Source of the DNA: Halichondria panicea
Taxonomy: Eukaryota > Porifera > Demospongiae > Suberitida > Halichondriidae
Direction of reading: 5' to 3'
DNA: 64,000 nucleotides
Assembly: GCF_963675165.1 (NCBI RefSeq)
Contig: NC_087389.1
Location: 4,634,620 to 4,698,619, forward strand
The notes under the pieces are model-generated. The model ran no database searches, was not told the DNA's origin, and worked only from the letters and a program-made list of their open reading frames with translations. How positions within the stretch are numbered: position 1 is the stretch's first letter; each line of letters begins with the position of its first letter. A program made the translations under genes and the position numbers. This document shows positions 1-46,671 of the stretch, one piece after another.

Positions 1-3000
1 CGTCAAATCACAGATTTGTGACTAATCCGAAACAGAAAGATCTTAATCAAACGGCGAACAGTACGCTGTTTCATACACGGCCTGGCTTCTTTTAGTTGCC
101 GAATTGATTATTGGGCTTTACCTGGGATCATACTTGACCCTTAGTTATAGTTATTCTATAGACAGCAGTGTTGAGTATAGCCAGCTACAGCAAGAGAACA
201 ACAAGACTACTCACAGTGAAAGAGAGAGCTCTAAGATGCGTGATTTACTGTTTGGAATAGAAGGAATAGGACGTGGAGTTGAATATTTCATTGGACCAGG
301 TATAGTTATAAAGGAGCTAGCCTTACTAAATAAGTTAAGCTATTTTACTACGTAAATGCATCAGTCCTTGTGTACTTTTTCGTTCAATGTATATACAATT
401 GTCCAAGACATATACATACACGTCATACATATACAAGTCATACATACATGTCATAGGGGCATATACTTGAAGCATTCACCAATTATACACCTATGCAGTA
501 TCATAATAGGAGCATGGCTTACACTACATAATATTATTCACTTACAGGTATTGGCGTATTGATGTCTTATTTTTCTGTTGACCAATTTCGATCAGTTGGT
601 TGGCTAAACGCAGCTCTGAGCTTGTGCACTCTTATTCCATTCATCTTTTTGTTTCGTGGAGAGAGAAGCTGCAAAGTTAAAAATTGTCAAGTGAACTGCA
701 GTTTCAAACATACATGTCATTCCAACATGGCTATGAGCAAGCTATCCGTGCTTATAATATCCTTACACATAATTATACACAAACAGTGATTACAGTGCAT
801 GGAAGGAACCATTTTATATAACGGACACTTTTGTAAAATTTTTTTGGCTGTTATTAGGTGGCCTTTTGAAGAGTTCTGATTATTTGGGACCCCCTACATA
901 GGTCCTTATTTAAAGTTTGCTTTCTTCAGGGGTGGCCGCTATAAAAGAGGTTTCACTGTAAACACTTGTACTGCTAATCATGGCGTTAATAGCCATGCAG
1001 TAATCCATGGCTATTAGCCATAGGAAAACCTTAACAGTGACTTCAGCACATAATTTCAATGCACCTACTAGCATACCTGCTAGCCATTGGATGGGGAGTG
1101 TTCAATACATTATTGGCCCCAGTTCTAACTGACTCTTTTGGTTTTGACATAAACTTGACAGCTTACTTTATTCTGGCATTCACTATTCCAAGAGTCGTTG
1201 GATCTATTCTTTTGTAAGTATATACAATCAATTTTATGCATCAACTGTGCTGTAAATGTAGAGCCTTCATTGACAATTTTGATAATGATATTGTTAATCA
1301 TTCAGGATACTCCTTCAAAAAATTGGAGTAAGTGTTCAAGTGGTTGGCATTATTGGAATTTTGATTACCATTTGCGGCTATCTGGTAATGACAGACTGGC
1401 AAACTATACCATATGACCCCTGTACCGAGTACAGTCCCTACCACCATCCAGAACTGCTACAGAATGTCACAGCAATAAACTATACAAGTCGCTATTCAAC
1501 AGCTGCTACTAGCAGCAGTCTTCTATTGCAAAGCTCTATCAAATTCAATTTTGAAAATAACAGAACACAATCGTTGTCACTTCAATTGCCTATTCAAATG
1601 TTTGAACGTTGCATGCAAACTGCACATTGTGACTGTAACAGGGACAAATCAAAGTGCCTCACTTTTGACATTGCAGATGAAAACATTTTTACCATACAAA
1701 ACACTGTGCAAGACGAAATAAAGCAGCTCGAAGCATTCAACTGTTCCATCCACCCATACACAATATGTTTGAAGCGACCAATCAATTATTTAGAAACTCT
1801 AAATGTTGAAGCTCAAAGTGTGCAAGTCCTCACAAATAATCAGTTCAATACAGCAAGTAATGTTTGTATTGAGGCAATCATACCTCACCATCGTTGTCAT
1901 TGGATACCGATCACAATGTTGACAGGGAAGAAATGTGCAGATTGCCCACCTATCTGCAGAAGCACTCACCAAACACTAACTCTGACTCAGTTTGTTGTCG
2001 GAGTGTCGTTGTTTATGATTGGCTGCTCAGTTGCCTGGGTAACAGTACTGGCAATCTCCTCAAATGTGACACCAAAACCACTACAGGTACGCAAGTATTA
2101 TAATTATGATGTATCTAAAGCCCTGTTTACACTAGCACTGATCCATAATTCTTTCTGAGTAAGTGGGAATAGTAAACTGACAACTAATTGCATTTGCACC
2201 ACAAACGTTGGTTGATAGGAAGCTACAGGTTTACTCTAGGAAAACGACAAACAGGTACAACACTTCAGAATTAGTACATGTACTTCGTGGCAGGAGTCAC
2301 AGATAGGCCTTGCCCAATTATGCTCAAAATTTTGCCTATTAGTTTACATTTGTGGTCTCCAAGTCTCATGCACTGTACCTACTAGTCTTTAATTCTTACC
2401 AATTAGTCTTTAATTCTTACCAATTAGTCTTTAATTCTTACCTATTAGTCTCAATAAAAAATCATCCACGAGAATTTGCAACAGACGCTTCTATATAATA
2501 TTCTAAGGAACTATATTGGTGATAGAAAAAAGTCAACTGATCTAGTAGTACTACTAGCACCTTCCATACATTACTAATAGCAAGAGTACCGTATTACTAG
2601 GATGTTTTGCAAGCATCAAACCAAGAGGGTTGATCAATTCGCAACAATAAAATTCGCAAAACCTAACTAGTTAATACACACGATCCTTGCCAGAACGCAA
2701 GAGTTAGATCACAAAGGGTCAAAATTTCTGCTGATTTGGCTCATTCGCAAAGGTTTTTCACCCGCAAAATATTCTAGTAATACAGTATATGATAGAGAGA
2801 CTAGATTACATCACCCACACTTGGATTGGTCAGTGTACAAATTCCAAGCTTGTGACAGATACAGGAAGTCACATTACTCTCCAGGCTTAGTGCACTTTTT
2901 CTACCAAAATTTGGTAAAAATTACAGCTAAAAACCACTACTGACCAAGTCCAACCCACCTCCAGAGGTATAGGTTGGGCTAAATGTAATCTATAGAACCA

Positions 3001-4187: not shown

Positions 4188-4592
4188 TTATTGTGCATAA
4201 ATGAACAAAAAGGACAGCATATAAAATATACTTGTCGACATCGTAGCTTGAGGAGTTTGAATCGAGACGTAGAGGGTGTGGTTCACAAAAGCTGGTGGGG
4301 AAGGTAGCTTGATGGACAGGTGTTCGATTAAATCAATATGGCACCATTTTTTAACCCTTAGATCGCTAGGAGCAGCAACAGACGGAGAGTAATGTTCGTC
4401 CTTTGCATTTCGACAGACATACAGGCCATAATTTGTCAGGTGCACTAGGTGTGGTTTCGCTTGCATGCTGACTGTGTCTCGTATATGCAATTCTTCGACC
4501 AATAGCATCACTTGAGCAGAGAGAACATGCATACTCATTGTGATGTTTTCCATTGACGTATTCATGCTGATCAAGATCTTCTTCAATTTGTC
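4188..4592 (-). pseudogene. Nischarin-like 3' fragment, copy 1
   Basis: An open frame on the minus strand matches the C-terminal part of the nischarin-like protein encoded at 30,293-41,609 (residue strings such as MENITMSMHVLSAQVMLL and SVAAPSDLRVKKWCHIDLIE). Homology stops abruptly at about 4592, just after the codons for DKLKKIL. The sequence beyond is unrelated, and no promoter or upstream exons are present. It is shorter than the fragments behind copies 2 and 3, so it was trimmed further or arose with a different breakpoint. It lies tail to tail with transporter copy 1. It is a gene fragment, not a functional gene. Confidence 0.8.
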
Positions 4593-4848
4593 AATAAGTA
4601 ATTTCAGTTGGTGCTATCTTATTTAGTTCCTTCGTGCACCCATTTTTGTATGTTTTCTCGCCAGCACTGTTTTATTTGGCCATCTTGTGTGTGCTTAGAG
4701 AAAGAGCTGAGAAAGAGTTCGGTGATTCCAGATAGAATAGAAGTCATGAATAGTGGCTTCTTCAATGCAAAATTTCTCTAAGGATAGTCTCACGTGATAC
4801 AGCTTTAGACAGGGCCCCCCCCCCAGCCCCCTTCAGAGCAGTTCTAAA
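4593..4848. other. No gene seen
   Basis: Sequence between the nischarin fragment and an AT-rich repeat. I see no recognisable coding or RNA gene. Confidence 0.4.
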
Positions 4849-5017
4849 ATCGATTATCAAAAATTGAATTTCAATAATCGATTAAAAAATCGAATCAATA
4901 ATCGATTATCAAAAATCGATTATCAAAAATCGATTATCAGATCGATTGTCAAAGATCGTTCACGTGTAAATCGAAAATCAACAGGATTATTAAAAATCGA
5001 CTTCAAAAATCGATTGT
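4849..5017. repeat. ATCGATT-rich short tandem repeat
   Basis: Imperfect repeats of the word AATCGATTATCAAA run through this segment (about ten occurrences of ATCGATT or close variants). They make a locally self-complementary, AT-rich tract. No gene is supported here. Confidence 0.7.
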
Positions 5018-6949
5018 ATATTAGATGCACACACCTATTACATTCTGCCTGAATTTTGTCGCAAACGGCGTTCCATAAATTATAACCGGACAATTTCCAA
5101 AATAATTATTTTTTGCTGTCCAAAGATATACGGTACTATCAAGGGCATATATGCCCTTGGTACTAAACACCGCGGCGATAATTATAATGAAAACCGTAAT
5201 GCGCATGCGCGTAGTCAAAGGCCTCTGGCTGAGCGTAGCAACAAGACGGCTTCCCAGCTGCTGCAAGAGATGTATTGAGTGTAATAGAGGAGCCTGGGCC
5301 TTCAACAACGGTCGGCAGAGGACAGCCAGCTCTAAATGACCTTCTGACATATTGTACTGGAACATTGTGTGTATAATCGTTTTGTATTTGTTAAGTAAAT
5401 GTATTTACCTTATGTTGAGTAAATGTTGGTTACGCTTCGAACCGGTGATTGGCAATCAGCGTAATACCTCAAACTACCCATCAGCTTTATGGAGAGTTGG
5501 AGGGGTTGAACAGCGTAGGAGGAGGCCATCAATGAATATAATTAGCTGCAAATTCCCAGCGATTAATTTGGGTCAATGAATATCATTAGCTGCGAATTCC
5601 CTGCGGTTAATTTGGGTTAATGAATATCATTAGCCCCAGGACGAGGGAATAAAATAGGTGAGTAGCTGGGTACGAGCCCCCTCCAATGAGAATAAATTTA
5701 TCTGAGTCCATGCAAGGAGTACTTGTAACTCGATTAAGTATGGATGTAAGTCACATATAAGTATACACATGAATTTACTGCGAGTCTACAGTATGGGGCA
5801 CAAATCTCGTTTGGAGAAAGGATGCCTGTCCGCGACGAGTAGAAATAGAAGCAGCCCTGCTGCTGTCGCTGGACAGACACAAACTCTGAGGAAGCTTTTA
5901 ACTGACCCAGTCGACAGACACGTCGTTAAAACCGAGGAGAGAGGCTCCGACGGGATGGTCATTTCACCCAATCGCGTGAATTAAGGCAAGGCATGTGCAT
6001 ATGATGGCGCATGAGGGAGTGCCCTGTTTGAGGAGTGTATTTACCGTTTTGGGGAGGATGTTTCGCAGCATGCCCATTGCGTTTTTATGCCCTTTCCAAT
6101 TTGTGATTGAGAGCTATTTGCGGTCAAATGGTGTGTGCGACTGCTGTAATGGAAACCGTATCGACAGGCCCTGCCGATTATTATTATTATTTATTTTGTT
6201 GGTATCGCGGCGATGAGAATAGCTATCATTTTTTGCCTGAAATGTTCTGCGGATGGGGGCTGGGAACCATACAGAGTGCTGCGCACCCCACGGGTCCGTG
6301 TAGTTGTGTAGCATGGAAATGCACCAGGTGGTGTCGGAACGAGCTTCAATGCTTAGGTGGACAAACTGATAAAGTGGTTGACTACCGTGGCGAGCATGCG
6401 CAAGTGAGATATACGGTGTACTCTGTATGTGTGTCTGTGCCGATTGCTACCGCTGCTCAAGGATCAACAAATCCAGCTACGCCTTCCTGGCTCGTGAACA
6501 ATGTTTGGTTGCTTAATTGGAGTGCCATTGCTGTAGCAAAACTTGTTCAACGAGTGTTGCTACTCTACCTAACAGCCGGTTAGCTCTGCACCAGAACGCT
6601 AGCTGCTGCAAGAGTGCATGAGGAAGTTGCGTGGTGAATGTATTTGCGTAGTCCAGCGCCTAGTTTACCCAAGTCGGCTGCCTGTCGAAAGCAGCTAGGT
6701 TGGCCTGCGAAATCTATGTTCTCCTGGTATAGCATTGCGTTTGGGGTTATGGGTTAGAAGTGAGTTGTGTAGTGGGCGTAGACCTTAGATTATCCACCAA
6801 GAGTCCGCATGGACTCCAGCTAATACCAATAATATCTGTAGATATGGCATACACCCCAGCGACATTAGCGTAGTAAACTTGTCCATGGAGTGTTTCTACT
6901 ATATATACTTAGCTCTGTACTAGGTGCAAGAGTGAGAAGAGAGCTCTAC
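5018..6949. other. Intergenic, no gene recognised
   Basis: Several open frames exist, the longest 158 codons (6107-6583, plus) and 114 codons (5021-5365, minus). None shows a recognisable domain, conserved motif, paired exon or paralogue elsewhere in the window, so I do not call them genes. CpG-containing words are more frequent here than in the gene blocks. A small tandem repeat is listed separately. Confidence 0.4.
5530..5632. repeat. ~54-bp tandem repeat, about two units
   Basis: The words TCAATGAATATNATTAGCTG, AATTCCC and GATTAATTTGGGT recur in order about two times, ending with a partial third unit at TTAATGAATATCATTAG. No coding function is seen. Confidence 0.65.
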
Positions 6950-8575
6950 TGACGAAGCCATTACTGGTCCCGAGCTTTTGGTTTTTAAGTAATAATCGTG
7001 GTCAACCATTACCCATTCTTAGAGTTTTTGCATGGTGCAAAATACTCATCATAAAAATTACAATGTGTGATGATTACAATGTGTGTAAGTAAGTGCCTGC
7101 CTTCCTGATAAAATGAGAGGGTCCGCGTGGATCCTAGCTACCATTAGTGTGGTGATGCGTTCACCAGGTGTCTGTGTGGACTGAACCTACCCCTCGATGC
7201 TTGAGGTGCGTGCAGGTGCATTGGTTTCGTCCATTGCCATCGACCGAAGGAGGTGCAGATTGTTATTAATAATCATGGTCGATCATTTCAGAGTTTGCAT
7301 GCGGCAAACAAAATACTCATCATAAAATATATAATGTGTGTAAGTAAGTGCATATGCACTCCGAAAAGGGTCCACGCGGTGGTGATGCGTTCACTAGGTG
7401 CCTGTACCTACCCCTAACTGCTTGGGGGTACGTGCTTTTGTATCACTGACTTTTGCCCATTGCCATGGACAGAAAGAGGTGCAGATAATCATGCATGGTC
7501 GGTCATTTTCCACTTTTGGAGTTTGAATTTGGCAAACAAAAGACTCTAGCTATACCATTAGTGGTGATGTGTTCACCAGCTAGGTGTCCGCGTGGACTGT
7601 ACCTACCCCCAGCTGCTGGGGGTGCGTGCTTTTGTATCAAGATGCATTGGCTTAGCTGGACAGAAAGAAGTGCGGATTGTTAATAATAATCACGGTCGAT
7701 CCGTACCCACTCGTAGAGTTTGCATGCGGCAAACAAAGTGAGAAGGGTCTGCGTGGACCCTAGCTATCATTAGTGGTGATGCGTTCGCCAGGTGTCCGCG
7801 TGGACTGTACCTAACCCTAGCTGCTTGGGGATGCATGCTCTTGTATCAAGATGGATGTATTAGCTTAGCCCCTTGCCGTGGACGGAAAGAAGTGCACTTC
7901 GATCATTACCCACTCTTAGAGTTTGCATGCGGCAATGCTCATTATGATAAATTATAATGTGTGTAAGTCCTGATAAAAGTGAGAAGGGTGGTACGTGATG
8001 CGTTCACCAGGGGTCTGCGTGGACCCTAGCTACCATTAGTGGTGATGCGTTCACCAGGTGTCTGTGTGGACTGTACCTGCCCCATGCAGCAAATTATACT
8101 TAATGCTCATCATAATAATTATAATGTGTGTAAGTCCTGATAAAAAAATAAGGGTCTGCGTGGACCCTAGCTACCATTAGTGGTGATGCGTTCACCAGGT
8201 GTCCGCGTGGACTGTACCTACCCCTAGCCTCGGTCCCAGGCCGATTTTTTTTTAATAGAACGAAGTTGAACCATGCAGCAAATTACTTAATGCAAGAAAT
8301 ACTCATCATGATAATTATAATGTGTGTAAGTCCTGATAAAAGTGAGAATGGTCTGCGTGGATCCTAGCTACCATTAGTGGTGATGCGTTCACCAGGTGTC
8401 CGCGTGGACTGTACCTGCCCCCAGTTGCTTGGGGGTACGTGCTCTTGTATCCAGATGCATTGGCTTAGCCCACTGCCATGGACAGAAAGAGGTGCATATA
8501 TATATATATATTTTTTTTTTAATAGTAATCATGGTCGATCATTACCCACACTTCTATAAAGTTTGCATAATTTTT
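6950..8575. repeat. Degenerate tandem array of ~200-240-bp units
   Basis: At least seven units share an ordered set of words: GGTCCGCGTGGACCCTAGCT, ATTAGTGGTGATGCGTTCAC, CAGGTGTCCGCGTGGACTGT, a C-run CTACCCC, TGCTCTTGTATC, GCATTGGCTTAGCCC, GGACAGAAAGAGGTGC, AATCATGGTCGATCATTACC, GAGTTTGCATGCGGCAA, ATAATTATAATGTGTGTAAG and TCCTGATAAAA. Unit starts fall near 7141, 7378, 7557, 7768, 8034, 8174 and 8371, with a partial unit before. Units differ by deletions and insertions. One carries at 8219-8250 the terminus of the TAGCCTCG transposon family. The word GTCCGCGTGGAC is itself a palindrome-like core. Function unknown. Confidence 0.8.
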
Positions 8576-8727
8576 AATTGTTTTGTAAAATTAATTGCAT
8601 AATAAATAGATTGATTATTATTGTATAATACATTGTTATAACATTGTACAACAATTTCTTTCTGGGTCTCTGGGAGAGGCTTGTCATTGATAACTCCTCT
8701 GAATCACAAAATTAACACAATACGTAC

Positions 8728-9811
8728 TAGCCTCGATCCCAGGCCGAGTTTTCGCTTTTATAACGGTTAGGCGAACAACTGGGCCTGGTACTAGTTGTCT
8801 GCGCATGCGTCAAATTTTCATTGTATATTTGTGGTCGGCAAAAATATTTAATAAATCAATAATAGAAATTTGTACACAGAAAATGCACAGAGTGAGTACA
8901 CAAAAGATGCACATAGGGAGCTGCTTCACAAAGGCCTGGGGAGTTGCCAGTTGTGCTGCAGCACAATTACAGTGACCCAGGGCAACTTCAGGATGATTGA
9001 ATGCCTTCAAATTACGTTTCAAAAAGATTTAGCAGGCTGCTGGACTTCTCTGATTCTAGGCCCCAACTCGTAACTCATTGCTTGAGAAAACGTAGATTCT
9101 CTTGATGTCTCTGAGCTACCCAGCAACGCTCGAATGAGCAGGTCATACTCCAGTCCTGTGTCTGTGAGTATAGGACAATGTTAAAAGAAACCAAAGACGG
9201 TTAAACCCTTACCTCAAACTGTCCAGTCTCGTCCGTTAGTATAGCCAAGAGGAGCACTGTTGGGATAGCTGGATATTAGCCATTGCTCCTGTACAGAGAA
9301 GTAGACATTTTAAATACGTGTAGATCTATACATATTAAATTTCTCGGTTATAGTGTCATTGTCGACGAGCTGATGATGGCAGCACCAAGTTCTCTAGCTC
9401 ACACTCTTCACTTGATCCACCATATTAATGATGAAACTATAGTCTACCTACATTCTTGCCAAACATGAACAAGACTTGATAGCATAGCCATAGGGCCCAC
9501 ACAAAAATATCTGACCTTAACAAGCTTGACAAAGCTTTATACCTCTTCCCTTGTTGTTCAGTCTTCAGAATAAGCTTCAGAGAAGAGAGAAGCTTCAGCT
9601 AAGAGCCATTCCAATCGATTCCAATAATGATAAAACGGGAACTGACTTCTAGTACACGATAGTACACGAATATAAATGTCACGAAAGTGAACGAGAATAT
9701 CCATTCGTCAGAATCTGACGAACGACTGACGCATGCGCAGACAACTAGTACCAGGCCCAGTTGTTCGCCTAACCGTTATAAAAGCGAAAACTCGGCCTGG
9801 GATCGAGGCTA
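8728..9811. mobile_element. Non-autonomous TIR element, TAGCCTCG family, 9-bp TSD
   Basis: The left end (TAGCCTCGATCCCAGGCCGA, continuing to about 8812) is repeated in inverted orientation at the right end (about 9727-9811), giving near-perfect terminal inverted repeats of about 85 bp. The element is flanked on both sides by the 9-bp word AATACGTAC (8719-8727 and 9812-9820), a target-site duplication. No transposase frame is evident in the 1.08 kb. Nine-base duplications and long TIRs are typical of Mutator-like elements, but without a transposase the superfamily stays open. Confidence 0.85.
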
Positions 9812-9820
9812 AATACGTAC

Positions 9821-11102
9821 AAACATGACATAGTTATAATCATTACAAAGTATATACACACACAGCGTCAAAAATATATGTATATAATGCATGAAAGGCA
9901 CACATGGCTCATATCCAAGTATTAAAGCAATACCCCAAAAAAAATGTCATATTCCTATTCTACTATGCATAAACAATTAGAAAACACATTAAACGCTACT
10001 CACGCTAACTTAGAAGTCACTGTGGAGGAACGGAAACATGATAGAGAAAATTTACTACAAGTAGTTACCAATTATTGTTTTTATAATAGAATGTTCCAGC
10101 ATTGATGGCTATTCCCATTCTATTGAATATGGGCTTTCATATAATGCAGCATTCAGTAAGTAATAGACTTGCAAAAGTGAGATATAGGAACAAAACCTTG
10201 CTATTTTGAGCACAAATCCAAGCACAACTGCCAGTGAGCGTACTAGAACATCATGCAGCTGGAGCTATCTGGGAAACCATGTGGATGCTAGAAGCCCAGT
10301 ACATACCTGGATTTCCCCCTGTATAGAGATCTCAGCTGAAGAGAAAAGTGGGCAGAGCTCAACCAGTGCATATATTCTGGAGCGTAACAAGCCTATTCTG
10401 AGGGTGTGACGTCACACGTTGAGATTGCAATGGATCATGTGAGGCGTTTTCAATCCCTTTCTGTTTGTTTATCTATGGTTTAACTTCATTAAACTCCATT
10501 TCCTTATGTTTAACTTTTGTGACGTAATGCCAGCTTAGTTTTATGATTGATGAGTTTTGTGAGAGACCTCATGGAGCACTAGAACTCTGTATGCCTGTAA
10601 TTTGTGTGTTGTTGTTGATTTTCTTGTAAACCATTCAAGCTACTGGTATAGCTAGTCCTACCTATAGAGAAGGATCCACTCGGTGACACAGATGAATTGT
10701 GAAGAAACAAGACAAACCAACTCTGCTGAGGTGAATGAGTTGCAACGGTTAAGGATATGACCAGGAATCTCAATACTGCAAGAACAACAAGCACCTTGGT
10801 GAACCGTTTTGAAGAATGGAGAGTAGCCAGAAGTTTTCCACTTCCATGCATTCGAGAAAATTGAAAAAAAATCTGGATGGAGTGTTGCAGCTATTTTTTA
10901 GCACTCTTAAGAAAGAGAATGGAGAGAGCTATGAACCATGCAGCTTGAGAACGATGCTAGCATGCTTAGACAGGTTTCTAATTATATAAGAGAAAACAAG
11001 AAGCCCTTCCGTATTCTGCATGTACAGCCTAAGACCTACCATGGGTCTCTTTCTTCGTTTCTGTTCCTTCTCAGTGCCAACATTGACCGAACAATTGTGA
11101 CT
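9821..11102. other. No gene recognised
   Basis: A+T-rich sequence with scattered open frames of 67-90 codons (10206-10409, 10579-10851, 10929-11195). None has a recognisable domain or plausible splice partners. I see no RNA gene or long repeat. Confidence 0.35.
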
Positions 11103-11160
11103 TAGCCTCGAGACCAGGCCGATTAAAATACGTACTTTAATCGGCCTGGTCTCGAGGCTA
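11103..11160. mobile_element. 58-bp perfect palindrome, minimal TAGCCTCG-family element
   Basis: Two 25-bp arms, TAGCCTCGAGACCAGGCCGA... and its exact reverse complement, flank an 8-bp centre (ATACGTAC). The arm is the terminus of the family found at 8728-9811 and 62,520-63,040. The 9 bp on each side (ATTGTGACT and ACTCTGACT) agree at 7 of 9 positions, compatible with an old duplication. It could be an internal deletion derivative reduced to its two ends. Confidence 0.75.
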
Positions 11161-11290
11161 ACTCTGACTCTGACTCTGCCTATAGTCAACTTCATATAAT
11201 GATATATTGACTTCTTTATATATTCTTCACTGATATTATTTCTTAAACACGCGCATCATTATGATTAGAAATCAATAGCATGGTTTACTC

Positions 11291-11396
11291 GTGCAATATG
11301 GCACTCATAACAAGCACTGGCAAGGTAAATTGCACTCGGCTACACCTCGTGCAATTACAACCCTTGACAGTGCTTGTTACTCGTGCCATATTGCAC
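11291..11396. repeat. Small inverted-repeat element
   Basis: A 27-bp arm starting GTGCAATATGGCACTCATAA (11291-11317) is repeated inverted at 11370-11396 with three differences. About 50 bp lie between the arms. Related arms with GTGCAATATGG and TAACAAGCA occur at about 29,237-29,365, so this is a dispersed MITE-like family. Confidence 0.7.
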
Positions 11397-11685
11397 TCTT
11401 AACAATACTACTAATAATTATAAAACATCCAAAACAATTGAATAGCACTAGACTACCTAAAAGACGTTGAAAATTTTCGCAGCTATATAATTATTATAAT
11501 ATAATTATTAAAATATAATTATTATAAAAGAGGAGTAGTATGCTATAAATAGGAGGTGGAGAAAAGGATTATAACACAGGTGGTATTTCCTCACAGATAT
11601 TTGATGCATATAGCAGCTATGTTGAGGTGGGTCATAGTGCATTTACTTATATATACAGCCTAATTCAAGATTACATTATTTATGT

Positions 11686-13048
11686 ATTAGTTATTGCCCA
11701 GCCAGAGTGCAATATATGGCATGTTGCACGAGGGCGCTAACTTGTTGCCCAATGACGTTAAACTCGTCTGACTGGTCATATAAATCGTAATAAAAGACAT
11801 AATTATGTTTTGGTGTATTCATTAGTTTTGCTGAATTCTATAGTAAATTTTTAGGTTTTCTTCCCACTACATGTAGTAGTTATAAAAGTAGTAGCCTATA
11901 AAAGGGACCAAATGAGTTATCTCTTTCCTTGGCAATCTGTTGTAGAAATTACAACAACGGTAACGAATCGTTATGATGAATTAGATGAAGTTGTATGTGA
12001 GCTCCTCCCTGACAAACAAACTGTAGTCTAGGTAATGGCCTTATCAGTCAAGTAGGCTAAAAATCTGTGTCCTTTGATGTAAGCTTTGATGTCTCTTTGT
12101 GCATATGTAGTTAAAAAAAAAAAAAAAAAAAAAAGAAACCTTTGACTAGCTAGGAAGAGTAGCAGTAGTAGTAGGAAGAGTAGCAGTAGTAGTAGCAGTG
12201 CAAGCAGGACTAGACTAGATTAAAAAGTTGGTGGAACGAATAACTGACCGTTTGGACGTCACCTGGCTGCCAGACTTTCATCTCGACTCTTCCCCCTGAG
12301 TAGCTGGCCTTTCTCTAAGCCACAAAACTGAGCAAGAAGCTGAAGAAGCAGCTAGACAGAGACATGTACCTAGCCTTGAGAATTGGGAGGCGTGGCTCAA
12401 CTAGTTAGCCCAGCCCAAAGGAATTGTTACCGTGGGTACTGAACAACTGTAGAAGTAGGGCTACCCCTGGCTTTACTGAATTAACTAGCTGTGTCTGCTG
12501 TCTAGTTGGACCAGATTTAGCTAGATAATGGGGTAGAGAATAGTTGAGCGGTGCTGTGTGTAGCTTGAACTGTACTGGCTGGCAAGAATCTAGTAAGCAC
12601 CCTATGCACTGATAACTCGTCAGAATGGAGGGTATGTTCTAGGGATCTGGACAGCTGTACATCCAAAGGAGCCAAGGAGTGCCAATCATCTTCTCCCAGT
12701 CTCTGACACGCTAAACAAAACGAGCTAGAACTGGGAGTCCCAGCTAGAATTGCTAGCCGGATCTAGACTAATAGAATGACATGGAGGCGTGGTGAGGCCG
12801 GATCCACACTAATTGATCGACCTAAAGACGCTCCTGTTCCAGATTTCACGAATGGCAAGGAAAGGGTTATAGGGTGGGATGGTGGGGCATAAGTCCCAAA
12901 AAGATATCTCTTAAAGAAATCTACTGCATATAATCCAGTGCATTATGCCATATAATGCAGTGCAATATATGGTAGCCATGGCAGTGATGCAACATGCCAT
13001 ATACTGAGCACTGGATTGCTTTGATCTGCCCACTCACTGGGCAACAAA
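11686..13048. mobile_element. Insertion upstream of transporter copy 2
   Basis: Compared with the regions upstream of copies 3 (20,400-20,440) and 4 (25,796-25,835), where AAGATNACATTACATTACAC is continuous, copy 2 has about 1.36 kb inserted between ATTACATTA (11,671-11,679 region) and TACATTACAC (about 13,051). The ends read TTATTGCCCAGCCAGAGTGC and, inverted, TTGCCCAGTGAGTGGGCAGA, roughly complementary termini. The same ends, inverted, bound the intron insertion at 13,951-14,885. The interior contains an A-run (12,112-12,134) and no convincing gene, so it is a non-autonomous element. Confidence 0.7.
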
Positions 13049-13174
13049 TATACATTACACTATAATTATAAGCTTACAGCTTCCACATTACTCCCACTCT
13101 ACTATGCATGTCACACATCTAAAATTGTGTCTAGAAGTAAGTAGTAGAAGTAATAATTATAACTACATGTAGAG

Positions 13175-25026: not shown

Positions 25027-25946
25027 CAAAAAAATGACGTGAAACTTCGCCAGATGCAGGAGAAATCAGTTGGGGAGGGACAATCCTGATAGGTATGTGC
25101 AGGATTTTTCTCCTGTGTGCCAAATTCAATTTTTATTTGAGAATGGCTCCACACTTTAATAATACAAAGTCGATTTTACCAGCCTAAGGAATGGGTGCAC
25201 AACGCTGGTAGGATGCCCTCCCATATTCTGTGCAGCTGTTCAAAATGTTTCGATGTCTATGTTGACTCTCAAATGTCAAATTGGGGTCGAGTAAATCGAT
25301 GGTTAACTCTATAGGTGCTGCATGTAGACTGAGTAAGCAGTAGCTCACTACAAAAAAACTTCACTATTATGAACACAGGATTTATGAAACCACCCAACTA
25401 AGAATGCAGACACTCCGTTTACTGACATGATAAACATATTTTGAGATGCTTACAAAGAATTTCTCCTATTTAACCCATTTGCATTATTATTGTGAGGCAG
25501 CTTAATTTCCACCTGTAATCTTGAATTCGGAGATGAAATTTCCTTCTGCATTTAATACATGTGTACTCCAAAACAATTAAATAGCACTAGACTACCTAGC
25601 TATCTAAAAGACGTTGGAAATTTTCGCAGCTATAATTATATAATTATAATTGTTACTTTAAAAGAGGAGTATTTATGTTATAGTTATAAAATAGGAGGTG
25701 GAGAAAAGAATTAACACAGGTGCATGGTTTTTCCTCACAGATATTTGATATGCATAGCAGCTATGTTGAGGTGGGTCATTAGTGCATTTGCACTTAGCCT
25801 GATTCAAGATTACATTACATTACACTATACAGGCTTCCACATTACTCCCACTAGCACTCTACTTAGAGTACTGTGCATGTCACACATCTAGAATTCTATA
25901 ATCAGTTAGAAGTACATCTATAGAAGTAATACAGCTACATGTAGAG
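25027..25946. other. Inter-copy spacer before transporter copy 4
   Basis: Corresponds to 18,794-20,551 without the 830-bp insertion. It carries the shared promoter-proximal words ATAGGAGGTGGAGAAAAG, CTCACAGATATTTGAT and CTACATGTAGAG just before the ATG. These are the best candidates for a conserved transporter promoter/5'UTR because they precede exon 1 in copies 2, 3 and 4. No other gene seen. Confidence 0.45.
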
Positions 25947-30292: not shown

Positions 30293-33200
30293 TCAACGGG
30301 TGTTAATTGGTAAATATTTTCCTGTTCTTACGGACCAAAGATTGGACAGTAAATGAACAAAGAAATGCAACAGTTCACTGTTCTGTACTAGGAAAGTCAT
30401 TCCACTGTCTTTTGTCGACATTGTAGCTTGAGGAGTTCGAATTGAGACGTAGAGGGTGTGGTTCACAAAAGCGGGTGGGGAAGGTAGCTTGATGGACAGG
30501 TGTTCGATTAAATCAATATGGCACCATTTTTTAACCCTTAGATCGCTAGGAGCAGCAACAGACGGAGAGTAGTATTCATCCTTTGCATTTCGACAGACGT
30601 ACAGGCCATAATTTGTCAGGTGCACTAGGTGTGGTTTCGCTTGCACGCTGACTGTGTCTCGTATATGCAACTCTTCGACCAATAGCATCACTTGAGCAGA
30701 GAGAACATGCATACTCATCGTGATGTTTTCCATTGACGAATTCCTCGTAATACTCGGGCTAATACTGATCAAAATCTCCTTCAATTTGTCAATACTGATG
30801 TCCGGGTGCGGAATACATTCAACGTCCATCTTTGAACCTTTCTTGATCTTCTGGGCGGCCACAGATTCAGAGACAAGGTCACAGAAGTCGAGGTCGGAAA
30901 TTTCTTCTTCTTCAGCAGAGTTTTGGAGGTTCAAAGTGCACGAGAGGGAGCTGAGTAGACTGACAGTGGCAAACTGGTTGTCCGTGTGTATGGTAATGGA
31001 CGGACTCGGAGAACTGCTTTTAGCAGGTGCATACGAAATAGTTGCTGAGAGATGAAACAGGCCTAGCTTGATTTCTTTTACCTCGCTGAGCCAAATTCGA
31101 TGGAAGCATCTGACGTCTGAGGAATCTTTCTTACTGAGGAGTGACATGCGCTGAAAAGAAAAGGCACCTCCATCGTCCATCCATTTTCGAATTGAATCGA
31201 CATCAGACAGTAGATAAATGGCATAGTTGCTGGTCAACAAGCACACTTCAATCTCAATATGGTCCTGTGTTGGGCTGGAAGTTGAGCAGTGAGCGAGAAA
31301 TGTGCATAAGGGAATTTCATCTGACTTGATAAACTCGGCTTGTGCCACATGTTTCTTGAAAAACTTTCCTCGCTGGTAATTAGATTGTTTGGCAAAATCG
31401 AGCAGTACCTCACTCTGAAAAAACACGGGGTTTCGGCTTTTTCCTCCATTCACTTTCGGCACTGAGATTTTTCTCGATTTTGAGACTGGCTGTAGAGACA
31501 GAGTGTCAGTGATAGAATCAGTGGCGTGCACAGTCTTCAATTCTTCTTGTCTCAAATCTTTTGAGAAATTCGTCAAATTCACCATAAATTGATCTAAACA
31601 CTCGCGGTCCTGCACACACAACTTCCATCGAAACACACTTTTCTCCGTTCCGGGGACCTCGTTGACAACCTCAAACTTGATCACAAACTCGTACACAGGG
31701 TCGGCGTGTGCAACAACGTGCTGAGCCCGGTCACAGATCTTTATCTTGCTCACAAATTTGAGAGGGTGGGAGTCCAACACGACCGTACGGGGGAGTGGGA
31801 ACTTGATGGACCCACCCTGGGGCCAAGACAAGAGAGATTCAATGCACAGATAAATGGTGTCGTTGGTGAGAATTAAAGTTCTTGTTCGGAGGTGCGGTTG
31901 ACCTATACTTAGAGGGAGGACATCGGTACATATCTCTCCCACCATCACGTGCTGGACAATTTCAAACTTTTGTGCTTGGTCTTCTGAGATTCGTTTCACT
32001 TCAGTTTCGAAATGACTTGCGAGTACAGTTTCGCTTTTGGACGTGACAGCAATGAAGTTACCAACTTGAGCGATAGTTTTCGGCCAGATGAGGTCTTCCT
32101 TGAGCCTTAGAAGGTCTGAACTGTCTGAGGTTACAAACAATGCTCCGTCTGCTTGTTGAGGAGCTATGATCGTTTCTCTTGTGGTCATAACACAGTGATA
32201 GATTTTCAAGTTATCCATGACAGCTTTGATGTTTTCGGTGATAGCAACCATCTGATCGTACTTTCTCGGTAAAAGTGCAAACGATTTGAGAAGTCCTTTC
32301 TCGATAAATTCCAGACAAACGCTCTGATCAAATACTCCAGTTGCAACCCTTGTCACAGTCGCTAGTGGGCAGCTCATTATACAGGCCAATGGCAGGTTGT
32401 CCGTTTCCCAAGATAAGTTCCTCGTTTTGTGCTTGCATGGATCCAGGACCTCCATAAGATACACGGCTTTGTCGCTGACAATCAGCCCCGTTTCAATCTC
32501 GCAAGACGGAGACGATGTAATGCAGCACCCTCCCCACACCACACTCACAATCACTTCACTACAGTCACTAGCAACCAAACCGCTGAAGAAATTCGCTAAC
32601 TGTTCATTTTCAAGTCCAGGCTTTTTAACTGTCTTTGGAGTGACATTTTTCGACGGAATCAAATCCTGCCCGGGGGGTGGATCGAAAACTCCAGATTCAA
32701 GGAAGTCTCGAGAGGCTCTTGAGATTTCTACGGCAGATGAGATAGCTGTTTCGTCTTGACGATCTCGTCTCACCTCTTGGTGATACTGTACGTTTGGTTC
32801 GGGGGTGACGGACCTTTCGTTCAGGTGTATCGGAGATTTGCGAGAGGTGGGTGTGCTACAATTTGACAGTGGCTTTATCGAAGACTCTATGGTTAGTATA
32901 TCGGAATCCAAGCTACTGTTTTGTTTCAAGCTGCTATTTGGAGATTGTGTTAGATTCAGTGAGCTTTGCGTTGACCCTTTACTGTTGGTAGACTCGAGGC
33001 TCAAGGCAGGCCTGCCGTCTTTGATATCAGACAATGAAAAGGTTTGTTCTGCACTGCTCATCGATTCGGTGATCTCAAGTTTTGGGCTGAGCGTATCGGA
33101 GGGTGGACTTGTCGGCGATTGAGGACTGACGATGCTCGTGATTTCGAGGAGGGCCAGTGATGCCTCAGGAGTCCTGTATACATGTACGGGGAAAGGGGAG

Positions 33201-36200
33201 TTAGCGTATTGTAGAGTGTGAACAAATATCACGAAGGCTTGGCTATAATTATATGTACATTGTATATCAATCAAGCTCTTATTTCTTACAGGCATGCATG
33301 CACATGATAAGGTGGAGAGAGGGTCAGGACTACTACCGAACACAATACTAAACAAGGAAAATACACTACCACTTTCGTACAGCTAAAGATGACAACACAT
33401 GTGCATGTAGATCCACACTCGCCTCCCTACTTACGTTGATCTGCTCCGCATGGTGGCCCGTACACAGCTGTACATTCTCACGAGAGCGTCCATTGTTGGG
33501 ACACAATAAACCACCCACATGGAGGAGGAGCCTAAGGTCATGAACTGGAGACACAGAGCCAATCGCTTGCCCTCGTGAACCTTCATATTCATCAGTAGGG
33601 CTGCAGTGGAGGATGGGGGGAGGCGGTAAATTGAGCCTAATGTACACACATGTACACGCACAATTTGCAAAACTATGTAAAACTAAATTCACTAAACACT
33701 ACTATTTGAGGAGACAAAATCTGAAGAAAGAAATAAAAAGCTACAGTATACATGTAAGCTTTGCCAGTTTGAAATATGAGGCACTTTACTGGCTAACTTG
33801 GTAGGCCATAACATGTACAGTATCTTTGTAAAAGTTACGTTCTAATGATAATACCGGACTAACCTAGGTCCCTCTGCGCCCGTGTCCTGTTGGCTGCCAT
33901 GACGACCTCTAGAATCTTGTTGACGGTGGGGTCAACGCTGACGGTGGCCTCCTCCAGACGACAGTTGAGCAACAGCTGGTCCATGTCCCCCGTCGAGAAG
34001 GTCTGTAGGGACCCGACGTACTCGTGAACCGTGACCAGGAAGTTAATGGACGTGGTCAGGCTGAAGAGCAAAGAAATGAAACGTAAAATTCTACAATGCC
34101 CACATTGGTCAGTAGTGATTGGTACTACAGGGCTGCATTGAGGGGGGGGTGAGGGGGGTAATTCTCCCCCCCTGGGCACAGTTTCGCCCCCTCTAGGATC
34201 TGGAAGATTCATTTGTACTGCTATAATTCTGATGACTTCGCCCCTCCTACATTTTTAATTAGCCCAATTCGCTCCCCCTCCTGATCCGGATGCAGCCCTG
34301 TTAACTATAACCACCTCTAAACAAAGTACATGTATGTAGTCTATTTGAGTTGAGTTGGGCCATCATAATGTTGTCACAACTTTGTCATAGTTTCTATCTA
34401 CATGTACAGTAGAGGTGATATTTAGGCTTCAACCGGTTAAAAGTTAGCATTTTTCATGTAGAAGTCTCTGGTATACTTGTCAACCACATAAAGCCCATAA
34501 TCAACCACATAAATTCCGGGGGGGGGGGGGGGGGCTAATTACTTTAAATACTAGTGCTGAATTGAGATTGATGATTGAAAATAGCCACCTGGGCATATCA
34601 CTGTACATCGCAAATTCGTAGACATCTGTTGTAACAATACCACTCCATTAACTAATAGTAGGAGTATCTTATTGCAAAAAGATGTACGTATGTACGTGTA
34701 TGTTATTTGCACTTACTTTTGAGGAGAGTCTGTTTCCTGTTTGGCTGCCACCATTTGAGCCATTGCTGGAGACATGTTCACCTCTAGGTCAACGAGGGAT
34801 GCCTCCACATTCAGGGATCTGTAGGGTGGGGGAGGGAGAGAGTGCTGGTGTGATACGTGTATACTATAAGCTTGTACATGTACATCAGCTAGCATGGCAT
34901 GGTTGTATTATTCCACTGTACACTTCACTTATAATATGGCACACGCACATTCACACACACACGCACACGCACACGCACATTCACACACACACGCACACGC
35001 ACGCACACACACACACACGCACACGCACACACACACTGGCTACATGTACATTGCAAGTACTGAGTGATGTATGGTTTATACATGTATGCAATGGTGAGGT
35101 GTGGTGGGAGATTGTTCAGCTTCATGCAATCCATGGGATATACCTAAACCTCTACGTACCATTTGTACAAATCTGTAGTTGAACTACTAAACTCTCTACA
35201 GGTTATACATGTACAATGTACAATATCTACTACTAGTCAGAGCACAAAGAGATTTGCTAATAGTAAATCTACTAAACGCAGCACTCTAGGACGTGAGTGG
35301 GTTGGTAATACATGTAGGTAGACTCACGCTTCAGGAGTTGTTCTCTTCTTGTCTCTGTGAGTCTTAGTAGACTTTCTCTTTTTCTTCGTTGGACTTCTTC
35401 TCAAAGAGACTACCTCGTTCTCAGACTGTGTGGGAGGTAACAAACAATCCATCATTACGATTCAAATTGGATCACCAGAAAATAACTGTTTGAAGATGCT
35501 ACACTAGAAGCTGAGCGAGTAATTATCTCTCTGGTCTAATATGGATACTTAGAATTCTCAGTTTTAGCTTGTGCATTGTAACTCTAATAAGTATTGCAAT
35601 GGGGTTTGATTGTAGAGCCATGTAAGTAGTTTGGTGTGGTTGGTCTCTAGCTCTGGGAAACAATTTCGTAGTATTATGGTATTAATTGTGTACATGTACA
35701 CTGTTAGAACCTTTTTCTTGTCAGCGTTGAGTATGGCCAGCCATTTATCTCCGCCCTCTTTCCGCAGTTCCTCCAGCTGATTGGTCAGACTCATACCCTC
35801 CTCCACCTCCGAAGCGGCTGTGTGTGTGGTGTGTGGGTTGAACATATTTGGTACAGCACTAGACTAAGTTCGTGTTGTGGTTTTTAAGTGGCTGAGTATT
35901 ATGCGTACCTTCCTTGGTCTCCTGTTCGTCAGTGTCTAGGGAAATGTCCGCAGTCCTGGAGGGAACCTAGACAATGAATAGTGATGTAGTGTGTGTACGA
36001 ATAATGATACTGTACACGTGTACAGAAGCATTGTTTTGCATTGTAAGAAGGCTATAATTATGTATATACAGTTGTACACACGGTGGAGAAGAGTTAGGAG
36101 AGGGATAGTCAGTGTACACACAGTAGCAAAGCAGAGTGTTAGCTAGGTTACACTCTCACCCTCTTGTGGCCCAGAGTGGGTGTGTTCAGGGAGATGCTGA

Positions 36201-39200
36201 TGTACTGCTCGTCGATGGACGCTTTCTTCCCATCCAATGCCACCTGAAATAGTGAGGGTGTGTAAATACAGATCTGTACATTTGCCAGGGATCAAGCTAC
36301 GTACAGAGAGTTAATAAGATTTTTTAACTACGTACAATGCTTATAGCTTAATGGATATAATCTGCACTTTCTATACCGGACCACAGGTATTTCGAAGGGC
36401 TACAAAATGCACCTACATGTAGTTATGAATATCCAAACTCAAGCCCTCCAACTAAGTTATCAAAACAGGCCCATATCGAGAGAAAAATCCCCTTGATTAT
36501 AGAGATCCCATGACTTTTCTTTGAAAATGAAACATTTCATCCGAGTGCAATTAATGACTGATCACTAGGTACTCCACCCACCCTTTCGTCTGTCTTGGGC
36601 AGCTGACTGAAGACCTGCGATCGATAAGAAGGGGACTGTTCGAGCGGGTTGCCTTGGAGGATCAGATAGTTTAGGTTGGCTAGTCGTGACAGCCTCCCAA
36701 CTTCAGCCACCTGTGGGGGGGGGGGGGGCAACACCAGCTGGTTAGAATTGGGCCATTGAGAAACATAACACAACCAACTATAAGGCTATGAACAGAAGTG
36801 AAGAAAATGCATTTCTATAGCATGCAGCTTTGGGAAAATTAATGATGACCCACCAACTTCATTTTTTTATTTTTGTCTAGTAGTTGGTTATTTTAATATA
36901 CATGTATAGAGGTAGTTTGTATCTCCTTGTCTAACAACTTGACTTACGTCTGAAATGTGATTGTTCCCCAAGTCGAAATACTCGAGTGAGAATGTCTTCT
37001 CCACTCCTGCATGGGACGGTAATACACAGTGGTGTGAGCTTAAGCCAAAGTAGCTAAGCAAAACACATACCGTACAGCTGACACACAACCAATTTCAAAT
37101 TACTGTACAACCTGGTATATTTAACTCGCTGACAATGTCAACCCCCGGGCCAGTGATGTGCCCAGATTTTTTGAAGTGGTGGCTATTTTTAATCCTAAAT
37201 TTCAATTCACTTTTATGCAGTAAACTACATGTAGGCCTAAGAGGTAGTTATTTTTTGTCTAGAACTGCCAACGACCAGTGTGGGCACACTGCTCTTGATT
37301 TATTACTCCTCACCTTCGAGTGAAATGATTGAGTTGCTGGAGAGACTGAGTTTCTTGACATTGCCCATTTTCTTGTGTAGGTTGCTCAGGTCAGAGATCT
37401 TGTTGCGGGAGAGGTCAAGCACTCGGAGGTGGGGCAGCTCCTGTGATTAATAAACACTAGTTACAGGATACCGTATTACACAGCACAATGTACATACACA
37501 ATAAAGAATCTACATGTATAACAAACAGACAAAACCGACACACATTCAATACTGCACACGAGAATTGAAAAGGGAAGATTCGTCTATTATTAAAAGGTCA
37601 AATACAACAGTGTGTGTATACATGTATACATGTAGTTGTTCTGAAAGTCTCTTTCAAATGGCGTACAGGGACACACACACCCACACACACCCACATCCAC
37701 CTACCCACACACACCCACACACACCACACACACACACTTACAGTGAGGTTCTCGATATCTTCGATATAGTTGAAACTCAGATCCAGTTTCTCCAGATAGG
37801 GCAAAAGTTTCTGCATGGTACGATACAGTGTAATATTTGGTAAAACAAATAAATATCTTGGTTTTATAAGGGTCTCAGAATAGCGTCACCACTGGTCTCA
37901 ATGGTGTCTATAGTATGTCCTCATTGACCCACTAAACCAACAGCCTTCTTTATAGTCACACATACCACATACCACATCCACTCCACTAGTGGTCTGCAAT
38001 ACAGTGTGAGATTAGCTCAGCAAATGCCTTTGATAGTTAAGCGTATAGACTTGAGGTCATTTAAATGAAAAGCACAATGATACGCATGCAAACAATAAAT
38101 TATGTAGTAGTTATACATGTAGCAATGGTAAAATAAATTACTAATAGGTCTACATGTAACAATACCCAAATGACCAAAAGAGTAGATAGCCAGGAATTTG
38201 CCCATAATCGTCTCTAGACAATATCAACCACCTCTTTTAGGCCTACATGTAGTACTCTTAGTTCAGAATGAGTGTACATGAACACGAACATGTACTTCCT
38301 CTCACCAAACTATCGTCGATTTTGGTTAGCTGGTTTAGTTTGAAGTTGGCATGCCTCAAGTAATTCCACCTCAAGGCTCGACTGTAATCTGGTTCAGAGA
38401 GTGACGGCTTCGGCTTCGGCATTGGCTTGGGAACGTAGTTAGGCGGAGCTTCAAACATGGACGCCTCGTCACAATACTCGACATCGGAGGGAGAGAACAC
38501 AACTAGTATCTCCTGTAGTGCATGGTGGGGGAATAGGATTCTTAAAAAAAAACACACACCATATTGTAGGAGCAGGTAACTTGTAGAGATCACATAGAGC
38601 TAAGATTAGATTGAATGCATCCCTCAGTGTTTTAGAATAAAATACTCTAGGCTTAAAATCCCCGGGGTCATGGGCTAAGTACCTTCAAGGAGGCGATGGT
38701 TCTGCGAACTTCCAGAGCTTGTAGTTGCCCTGGGAACTGATGTCTCCCCTGGAACTGGTGCATGCAAATACTGTCCACAAAAAGCACTGTGATGGACTTC
38801 ATTAGTGATAGGTCAAAAGTCAACTGGCCGGGTTCACGTATTGCAAACAACTCTTCAGCTGGCGGTGCTATCTGTGCGTGTGTGTGTGTGTGTGTGTGTG
38901 GTGTGTGTGCGTGTGTGGGTCTTCAACAGAAACCAAAGGCACTAATAAGACATCATCGTTATGATTCTGTACAGGTGTGAGTGTGCGTACATGTACATTT
39001 TCAACCATTCTCAGCGTACAGCTACATGTACCTTGAGCTTCTTGAGGTTCTGAACAAAATCTAACAGATGTCCGAAATCATCCTTCATTTTGCCACTTTC
39101 TGTACAGGGTAATCAAAAAGAAGCACAATTACGACCGGTCCTGGTATAGATATGTAAATAGTAGGCCTACACTTTCCAATCTACATGTACTGGTTGTGCT

Positions 39201-41609
39201 GTCACCCACCCTTGGGCAGACTAACAATGGCTGTAGTAAAGAGGTGGCCTAGCTGCTGACACAGGTCCAAACACTGTCACAGCTGAGGACACTTAAGGGC
39301 CTACACGTATTATATTATAGAGGGTGGCCTGCTTATAAATGAATGTAGAGACGGGTTCCTCTTATACACCAGAGGCTCACCACTCGAGGCCATGGGTAGG
39401 AAGAGTCTCCGATTCATACAGTGCAGCTGTAGAGGGCTCATCTGAACTGCCTTGTCCTGGGCAATCACAACATCTCCTATATAGGGGAGGGAGGAGGGGG
39501 GTAAGAATTGGTAACAGGGTATGGTGAAAAATGTTTCCACACACCCCAAAAAATAATGTACTAGATTGATGAATAGAGTTGTACCTACATGTAATGCCTG
39601 ATATACAAATGTACATGGGAAGGAAGGATACAATATTCCAGCACATAATTATATACATGTATTATTCTAACACATTACAAGTTCATGCTAACATTTCATG
39701 CCTGATGGGTACATACAGCACATACAGTACAGCAACGTGCACAGGTCATGGCTTTAATCACAACCCCACCTGCTACTGATATGAATCTCATCCTCTGAGG
39801 TACAGTACCAGGATATTAAAGGTCAAACCCACTAGCCAAATTCATGAACCCTCTAAGCATTTTCACACGTGCAACCAACTGGCAGAGGAGTATCACATTC
39901 ATACAGGGGAGAGGCAGTGAGTTTCATTGTACATGTAGTACAATGATAACAGGAAAGCTTTGTTTTGATTACTGAACAGGATTTTATTACACAGAAAATA
40001 CTCTCTTTTTTGTAACAAAGTGTATTTGTAATCATAATGCACTATACAACCTGTACCTTGCTGATAGAAGAAGCGGGCCAGGCCCTGGGTCACACTCAGA
40101 ACGTCCTGTGTGTGTGTGTGTGTTGTTTGTACATGATGAAAACAGTTCATTGTTTGTTCAAGACTCGCTTGTTTTGAAAATCACAATTGTGATTTTCAAA
40201 ACCAACCAGGTTCATTGTTAGATCGTGGCTGTAATAAAGAGGTAGCATGCTAACACAGGTCCAAACACACGCTTTGGGTCCACTAACCTGGCTGTGAGGG
40301 CAGCCTGCTTATTATGGTGAACAGGTTTTAACAATCATTGACATGCACTCTCAATAATTCTCAATCTTTCCTACCAAGCCGACTAAAACCGCCTACAAAC
40401 TCCCGACAAGAATCCTAGATCCGCCACTGATTCTGGTGCAATTTTAGCTCACAAGTCACATAATAGCAGTACAAATGCCTTGTACTATAGACGGGTAGTA
40501 ATTTTAGCGTTTTCAGATTTTTCTCTGTTTTTAGACTACCTGAACAAGCACTATAGAGACTACACATACACACACACACAAATGATCCACTCACACAGAA
40601 CGGGTACTCCAGAAACTTGAAGAGCTCTGTCGGAGCGACTGGACAGTTCTGTACCACGGCCATGAGCATGCCCTCCAGCACACCCTGGGTTTCCATTAGT
40701 TCCCCTTTCTTGAGCTTGGCAAAGAAACCGAGCACTCCTCGCGATGGGAGGAGCTGACGGTCCACTCCGTACAGACTCACTAGCTGTGTGTGTGGTGTGT
40801 GGGGAGAGGGGGTGTGGTCGGATTCGTATGTATAGAGGTGGCAAATCAATAGAGTATTAATTTTACACCATGTCCTGAATGCTTGCTTGTACATTCATTG
40901 TTTCTTTTTTACAATATAGGATTGTACAGGGCCCAGCTGTTGTATATTATAGCGCTAGCAACAATTCTAGTGAAATAATGAGAACTATACATGTAAATAC
41001 AGGTAGAGAAAGGGACTCACCACTTTGTGCAGATCCACAAACTGTTGGTAGGTCCGCAACACTGTCCATTGGAACCCTCCCAGCACAGGACACACCGTGA
41101 AGTACTGCAAGAGAGAAGTATATAAGCAGACGGTGTAAATGATACATGCATGTACATGTAATATACGTACATGTACATGTACATACATGTAGCTTAAGCT
41201 TAGAAAGACCTTAATTCAGCCCTGTATAAAATGAAGTGTGTACAAGCTTCAAACAAGAGCTTGTAAATGGCTTGTAGCATACTATACTAAACAATACATT
41301 GTTAATAATTTCTAAATGCAAACTTATGTTCCACCCCATCAACTCGGGACAACTCACAGTGATTCCGTTCTTCTCCACAAAGCCAGTCACGCGTACACTG
41401 CTGAGCACTGGAGAGTCAAACAGCGGCCACTCTTTGGGCAGACCAGACACACTCTCTTCAATGTCCCCCATAGTTGCACCTGTTGTCTCACTTGTGTGGC
41501 TTTTCAAGTCACCTCTGTCAAAAGCTTGTCTCTCCTCTTCTGAGAGCCACTCGCGGCTGATACTGTCGTACAGAAAGCTGCCGCAGTTTTGCCTTAGAGC
41601 GTGAGTCAT
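30293..41609 (-). CDS. NISCH-like: Nischarin-like PX-LRR protein, 20 exons
   Basis: Exons (5' to 3'): 41609-41358, 41104-41021, 40783-40595, 40105-40057, 39476-39381, 39099-39032, 38871-38683, 38512-38306, 37810-37742, 37440-37314, 37006-36948, 36710-36582, 36243-36160, 35966-35909, 35817-35711, 35425-35328, 34818-34717, 34060-33864, 33600-33435, 33173-30293. Summed, they give 5,211 bp, one frame of 1,736 residues. Residues ~68-185 form a PX domain (FTVCPVLGGFQWTVLRTYQQ, then FVDLHK), ~355-505 leucine-rich repeats (LPYLEKLDLSFNYIEDIENL; LRVLDLSRNKISDL; LNYLILQGNPLEQSPSYR, the capping repeat), then an acidic/basic linker (RRSPTKKKRKSTKT). A Ser-rich region and a large C-terminal region follow. 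Order and motifs fit nischarin (human ~1,500 residues), an endosomal PI3P-binding scaffold linked to integrin alpha5, Rac/PAK and LKB1. The donor of exon 15 (GTTCTA) is weak. The 3' end was copied with the transporters. Confidence 0.85.
34519..34532. repeat. G homopolymer in nischarin intron
   Basis: A run of G residues interrupts otherwise AT-rich intron sequence. Comparable G/C runs occur at 36,714-36,729, 42,856-42,868 and 48,158-48,174. Length in such runs is unreliable in assemblies. Confidence 0.8.
34938..35036. repeat. CA/CACACG microsatellite in nischarin intron
   Basis: Runs of CACACACG and CACACGCACATT units. Long open frames across it on both strands (poly-His/Thr and poly-Val/Cys/Arg) are artefacts of the repeat. 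Similar CA tracts lie at about 37,671-37,739 and (TG)n at 38,877-38,917, right next to splice acceptors of the same gene. Confidence 0.9.
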
Positions 41610-46575: not shown

Positions 46576-46671
46576 CGAAGTCATCAGAATTATAGCAGTA
46601 TAAATGAATCTGCCTGATCCTAGGGGGGCGAATTGAATGCATGCATGCATGCTCATGCAGCCCTGACTCAC

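Follow-up and report, generated by a model that had tools for sequence, protein, structure and literature searches.

A 64,000-bp window of the genome of the sponge Halichondria panicea (contig NC_087389.1; C13:4,634,620-4,698,619), together with the sequence to its left, carries a head-to-tail array of six units (A, B, 1, 2, 3 and 4), all in one orientation on one contig. In every unit a predicted transporter gene of the major facilitator superfamily (MFS) has behind it, on the opposite strand, 3' coding sequence of nischarin, and exon mapping places five truncated nischarin tails before a single intact nischarin gene at the right end, the only copy that extends upstream. The explanation we favour, with a probability of roughly 0.85, is tandem segmental duplication that carried nischarin along as a truncated passenger, followed by exchange among the units. 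Positions below are those of the window, by which we mean the whole 64,000-bp stretch; negative positions lie to the left of window base 1, with 0 for the base preceding it, and two left-hand stretches, L001 (-9,999 to 0) and L002 (-19,999 to -10,000), were included. Genome-wide searches cover a 131-Mb assembly in 39 contigs.

Six units with a shared breakpoint inside nischarin

Comparison of the window with itself returned four transporter blocks in kilobase-long alignments of 80-94% identity, a length and similarity that exclude chance as the origin of the repeat units. Comparison with L001 and L002 placed the left edge of the array homology at about -10,494, some 10.5 kb left of the window. 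The initial annotation had reported a four-fold tandem amplification of the transporter, with the 3' end of nischarin behind each copy and the full nischarin gene only in the last pair; the arrangement held on exon mapping, but the count rises to six with unit A and the exon-7 remnant B, both left of the window. Open transporter frames are present in units A, 2, 3 and 4, unit 1 is broken, and unit B consists of the last exon only. Genome-wide, the open reading frame (ORF) of the last nischarin exon had six matches, all of them in the array as neighbours in the same orientation on the one contig. The DNA of transporter exon 5 had nine, five in the array and four others that are short, 74-84% identical and located on contigs C7 and C14.

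Three of the five truncated tails (B, 2 and 3) match intact nischarin up to the identical base, with -969, 18,799 and 25,028 aligning with its base at 31,059. A common endpoint of fragments 2 and 3 had been described before, and the shared base stands; its coordinates are those given here and not 18,793, 25,026 and 31,058. Past the junction, B, 2 and 3 run into a common linker of 652-706 bp. The five genome matches of this linker all lie in the array, between units 3 and 4, between 2 and 3 (two pieces flanking an insert), between B and 1, and, as a right-hand part, before unit 2; a genome-wide search for a source of the linker outside the array gave no match. Whole or in part, it occupies four of the five unit boundaries, those in front of transporters 1, 2, 3 and 4. 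The junction and linker common to B, 2 and 3 bear out the earlier proposal of a joint duplication with a single breakpoint inside the last exon of nischarin. Fragments 1 and A end elsewhere, having lost the junction end. At the boundary between A and B, tail A abuts, at about -3,987, a sequence matching 29,358-29,521 in intron 6 of unit 4, which is followed by exon 7 of B. As read from its letters, this boundary is a deletion scar: exons 1-6 of unit B appear to have been lost, as do the linker and most of the tail of unit A.

Conflicting relationships along the units

Overall, the units diverge by 1.6-12%, depending on the segment. In the spacer from exon 7 to nischarin, A, 2 and 3 differ from one another by 1.8-3.0% and B, 1 and 4 by 4.8-7.0%, against 8.8-12.1% between the two groups. 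The closest pairs in exons 3-5 are 1-3 (3.0%) and A-4 (3.1%), the closest pair in the exon 6 stretch is 3-4 (2.2%), and 2-3 is the closest in exons 1-2 (1.6%), the nischarin tail (3.0%) and the linker (2.0%). Intron 6 distances were calculated without unit 4, which has an insert there.

Unrooted trees of five segments were compared by per-topology likelihoods with resampling of estimated log-likelihoods (RELL) and the Shimodaira-Hasegawa (SH) test in numpy. Exon 5 and the nischarin fragments, whose phylogenies the initial annotation had suggested comparing, are both of useful length in units 2, 3 and 4 only, and three units do not suffice for an unrooted tree, so exons 3-5 were compared with the spacer over A, 1, 2, 3 and 4. 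Unit 1 (broken) was left out of the exons 1-2 tree, B (no exons 1-6) out of the transporter-body trees, and A (144 bp) and fragment 1 (364 bp) out of the nischarin-tail tree. For the spacer, 12 of the 15 trees, all those without {1,4}, gave SH 0.000; for exons 3-5, the three trees holding {1,4} gave SH 0.006-0.008. The top three trees of the exon 6 stretch all contain {3,4}, with two others unrejected (SH 0.065 and 0.056), and the nischarin tail of B, 2, 3 and 4 favours {2,3}, the other topologies giving SH 0.019. A run-length permutation test was significant after correction in four of ten pairs (A-3, A-4, 3-4 and 2-4). The pair B-2 differs by 11.7% in the spacer and by 4.4% in the adjoining tail (p 7e-7). 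A difference in rate was rejected as the source of this contrast because spacer and tail are equally diverged in the like-with-like pairs 2-3 and B-4. These patterns indicate that the units are mosaics produced by sequence exchange, probably through unequal crossing-over, gene conversion or both.

According to the initial annotation, one duplication followed by re-duplication of whole units was enough to explain the array. The closeness of units 2 and 3 in exons 1-2, tail and linker is as expected from recent re-duplication, but the pairings in exons 3-5 and around exon 6, together with the division of the spacer into {A,2,3} and {1,4}, are at odds with so simple a history; given these conflicts, we regard a history free of later exchange as very unlikely. 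The initial annotation had also tied co-duplication to agreement between trees. That agreement is missing, since exons 3-5 and the spacer conflict, yet the shared junction keeps co-duplication, and exchange between the units would reconcile the two.

Transporter genes and nischarin tails

Gene models were spliced by hand from the genome sequence, and the open transporter frames encode 663 (A), 660 (2), 662 (3) and 668 (4) amino acids. The first transporter in the window, unit 1, is broken by an out-of-frame deletion of 233 bp relative to unit 4, comprising 7 bp of exon 1, the whole of intron 1 and 168 bp of exon 2. The hand-spliced 668-residue protein of unit 4 matched Pfam MFS_1 at 50.9 bits (cut-off 33.4; E 1.4e-13), and a search of the PDB up to E 10 gave no match for it. 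The transporter is accordingly named here as a predicted MFS member; "MFSD8-like" is the label of the initial annotation. Distant relatives of the transporter were found at the protein level on contigs C2, C4, C7, C10 and C14, several of them clustered, in a search that gave at least 85 exon-level matches including the array, a lower bound since the best 66 of 161 candidates were scored. An isolated piece of transporter exon 2 lies at C5:6,196,472-6,196,753, with 88% protein identity to residues 102-195.

Pairwise comparison of A, 2, 3 and 4 gave a synonymous divergence (dS) of 0.042-0.057, a nonsynonymous divergence (dN) of 0.020-0.028 and dN/dS of 0.34-0.54, with a significant synonymous excess in all six pairs, which have branches in common (p 0.0001-0.025). 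The transporter coding regions show purifying selection, and most simply the transporter would be the retained gene. In all five copies with intron 3 (A, 1, 2, 3 and 4; 26,995-27,279 in unit 4), this intron has the donor ATATCCTTA and a branch-like CCTTAAC, and its acceptor is CAC. These motifs fit the AT-AC consensus of the minor spliceosome (U12-type), and intron 3 looks like a putative U12-type AT-AC intron.

Hand-joined readings of the upstream exons of the full-length neighbour gave matches to PX (22.3 bits, cut-off 21.6) and LRR_4 (70.6 bits, cut-off 27); for the last-exon ORF, the best match was PH_NISCH_C at 20.7 bits, under its cut-off of 27. The PX domain and the leucine-rich repeats in the upstream exons support the prediction that this gene is nischarin. 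Indels and stops were counted in tails B, 1, 2 and 3. Frameshifting indels number five in B, three in 2 and three in 3, each of which also has one substitution stop. Differences between fragments show no excess at third positions (first/second/third: B-2 13/6/12, B-3 16/8/16, 2-3 12/5/4), and those between a fragment and intact nischarin do (B-4 9/6/20, 2-4 13/4/18, 3-4 13/6/23). The tails would most simply be decaying neutral passengers.

The first AATAAA or ATTAAA after the transporter stop lies 860 (A), 639 (2), 496 (3), 168 (4) and 143 (1) bases on, and in A, 2 and 3 it is reached only after the nischarin tail has begun, according to a raw hexamer listing without shuffle comparison. In unit 4, the transporter and nischarin stop codons are 455 bp apart. 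The position of these hexamers gives a weak hint that the tails have a function, either within new genes or in antisense regulation of nischarin; against this stand the stops and frameshifting indels of tails B, 2 and 3 and the missing third-position excess between fragments, and a functional role of this kind appears very improbable. We give little more credence to the idea that transporter transcripts of A, 2 and 3 may cross the tails as antisense RNA and that the tails may convert the working nischarin gene. If the tails did act on nischarin, transporter amplification would alter the expression or the sequence of its neighbour.

History of the array, its surroundings and its parallels

In the explanation favoured here, a head-to-tail duplication would have copied a segment that starts upstream of the MFS transporter, spans the gene to its 3' end and stops within the last exon of the convergent nischarin gene. 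Each new unit would then comprise the whole transporter but, of nischarin, no more than the final ~250 codons, with the full nischarin gene at the right end. The count would have grown through unequal crossing-over to six units or more, which crossing-over, gene conversion or both would then have mixed, leaving adjacent stretches with different nearest relatives. Decay would include the deletion that fused A to B, the loss of parts of exons 1 and 2 from unit 1 and the frameshifts gained by the tails, with the transporter being kept and the nischarin tails hitch-hiking. We infer this order of events, and the array may have been of benefit through transporter dosage or variety.

Several observations weigh against this explanation. 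No linker is present left of unit A, where the homology starts beside unrelated flank; a simple two-point duplication predicts one there and needs a further step to fit: either the upstream part of A was deleted later, or the linker is filler DNA from the first junction. Exons 3-5 leave five of the 15 trees unrejected at 0.05, exons 1-2 favour {2,3} with no topology rejected at that level (alternatives SH 0.072 and 0.138), and the run-length test may be inflated where divergence varies along the unit. Fragment 1 (364 bp), with one 18-bp in-frame indel and no stop, is free of frameshifts.

Highly heterozygous animals are prone to misassembly, in which haplotypes are stacked or collapsed repeats wrongly joined, and the array is read from assembled sequence. 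The extent of the divergence between units, the inserts and deletions that differ from one unit to another, and the location of all units within one 6.57-Mb contig nevertheless make such an artefact highly improbable. Capture and spread of the transporter and nischarin tail by a mobile element, an idea prompted by repeats in and near the array, one of them a dispersed element of ~300 bp to the left of unit A, has almost no chance of being correct, as the six nischarin matches all sit side by side on a single contig, pointing the same way, and nothing outside the array matches the linker.

The ~300-bp element (L002 9,110-9,407; -10,890 to -10,593) has internal inverted similarity and resembles a miniature inverted-repeat transposable element (MITE); genome-wide, 87 matches were listed, with the best 40 of 992 candidates scored. 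It was rejected as the direct cause of the homology edge of unit A, from which it lies ~100 bp away. Between fragment 1 and the following linker piece are ~6.8 kb (4,597-11,427) with direct repeats at 7,000-8,500, which are absent from the Tandem Repeats Finder listing. Related repeats in opposite orientation (11,680-13,050 and 13,951-14,890) flank exons 1-2 of unit 2, and pieces of them also occur in intron 2 of unit A (L001 780-1,206).

Outside the array, a second tandem cluster on the minus strand (44,353-57,021) holds four 3-beta-HSD-like dehydrogenase copies, the first two of which share 92.6% DNA identity; Pfam 3Beta_HSD matched both of the two copies tested. An ORF at 59,411-59,953, on the minus strand, matches Pfam HTH_psq (E 2e-7), a helix-turn-helix of the Psq type, and perhaps derives from a pogo-like transposon. 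To the left, a 544-residue ORF with a coiled-coil look (L002 4,578-6,212, minus strand) matched the fibrillar collagen C-terminal domain at 24.5 bits, under the cut-off of 26.2. Rfam gave no match within the window at gathering score.

Table 1. Coordinates of the array and of the neighbouring dehydrogenase cluster, in window positions.
Feature	Position	Strand	Basis
Unit A transporter, exons 1-7	-10,269 to -4,563	+	exon mapping
Nischarin tail A, short (144 bp)	-4,130 to -3,987	-	exon mapping
Unit B transporter, exon 7 only	from -2,405	+	exon mapping
Nischarin tail B, ends at shared junction	-1,739 to -969	-	exon mapping
Transporter unit 1, exons 1 and 2 fused, broken	-105 to 3,822	+	exon mapping, frames, letters at deletion
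Nischarin tail fragment 1, stops short of shared junction	4,233-4,596	-	exon mapping, indel count
Linker, right-hand part, upstream of transporter 2; insert to 13,050 behind	11,428-11,678		linker positions 539-712, 75%
Transporter unit 2, 7 exons, 660-aa open frame	13,175-17,624	+	hand gene model
Nischarin tail fragment 2, ends at shared junction	18,082-18,799	-	exon mapping, indel count, junction letters
Shared linker between units 2 and 3; insert up to ~20,290 behind	18,800-19,478		self-comparison, genome search
Transporter unit 3, 7 exons, 662-aa open frame	20,552-23,854	+	exon mapping, frames
Nischarin tail fragment 3, ends at shared junction	24,300-25,028	-	exon mapping, indel count, junction letters
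Shared linker between units 3 and 4	25,029-25,735		genome search, junction comparison
Transporter unit 4, 7 exons, 668-aa open frame, MFS_1 match	25,947-29,841	+	exon mapping, Pfam
Intact nischarin; last-exon ORF 30,293-33,382; breakpoint 31,059	30,293-41,609	-	right limit from the initial annotation
3-beta-HSD-like copies, the third as two overlapping ORFs	44,353-45,441; 52,587-53,687; 54,200-55,391; 55,774-57,021	-	

The architecture of the array has a close parallel in the human RCCX locus (STK19-C4-CYP21-TNX), where, in the account of PMC8362596, the 3' end of CYP21 is overlapped on the opposite strand by TNXA, a truncated duplicate of TNXB, and where modules have been reshaped by unequal crossover and gene conversion. 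As there, each extra module carries a truncated convergent neighbour, tail to tail, nischarin here and TNXA in RCCX. The genes and the organism differ, however, and RCCX usually has two modules compared with the six units of the sponge array; in addition, the last TNX exon lies inside the CYP21 3' untranslated region, whereas here the two stop codons of unit 4 stand 455 bp apart. In Caenorhabditis elegans, about half of young duplicate pairs are described as partial or chimeric, with breakpoints inside genes (PMC2728529). The sponge array resembles these partial duplicates in that intragenic breakpoints leave partial copies and, unlike the pairs of such surveys, is made up of several units in which a single breakpoint recurs. 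A literature search combining sponge genomes, tandem duplication and the major facilitator superfamily found no report, and among the matches listed for nischarin and sponge none was on topic by title.

For annotation, the array carries a warning, as, of the six nischarin-like sequences here, five are truncated copies and just one is a complete gene. The array belongs to a known kind, that of RCCX-like architecture, and is notable for the number of its units and for its legibility rather than for its mechanism. The array offers a clean natural record of gene-array growth, in which a breakpoint within a neighbouring gene acts as a tag of joint amplification, legible even after exchange has scrambled the trees of the units.

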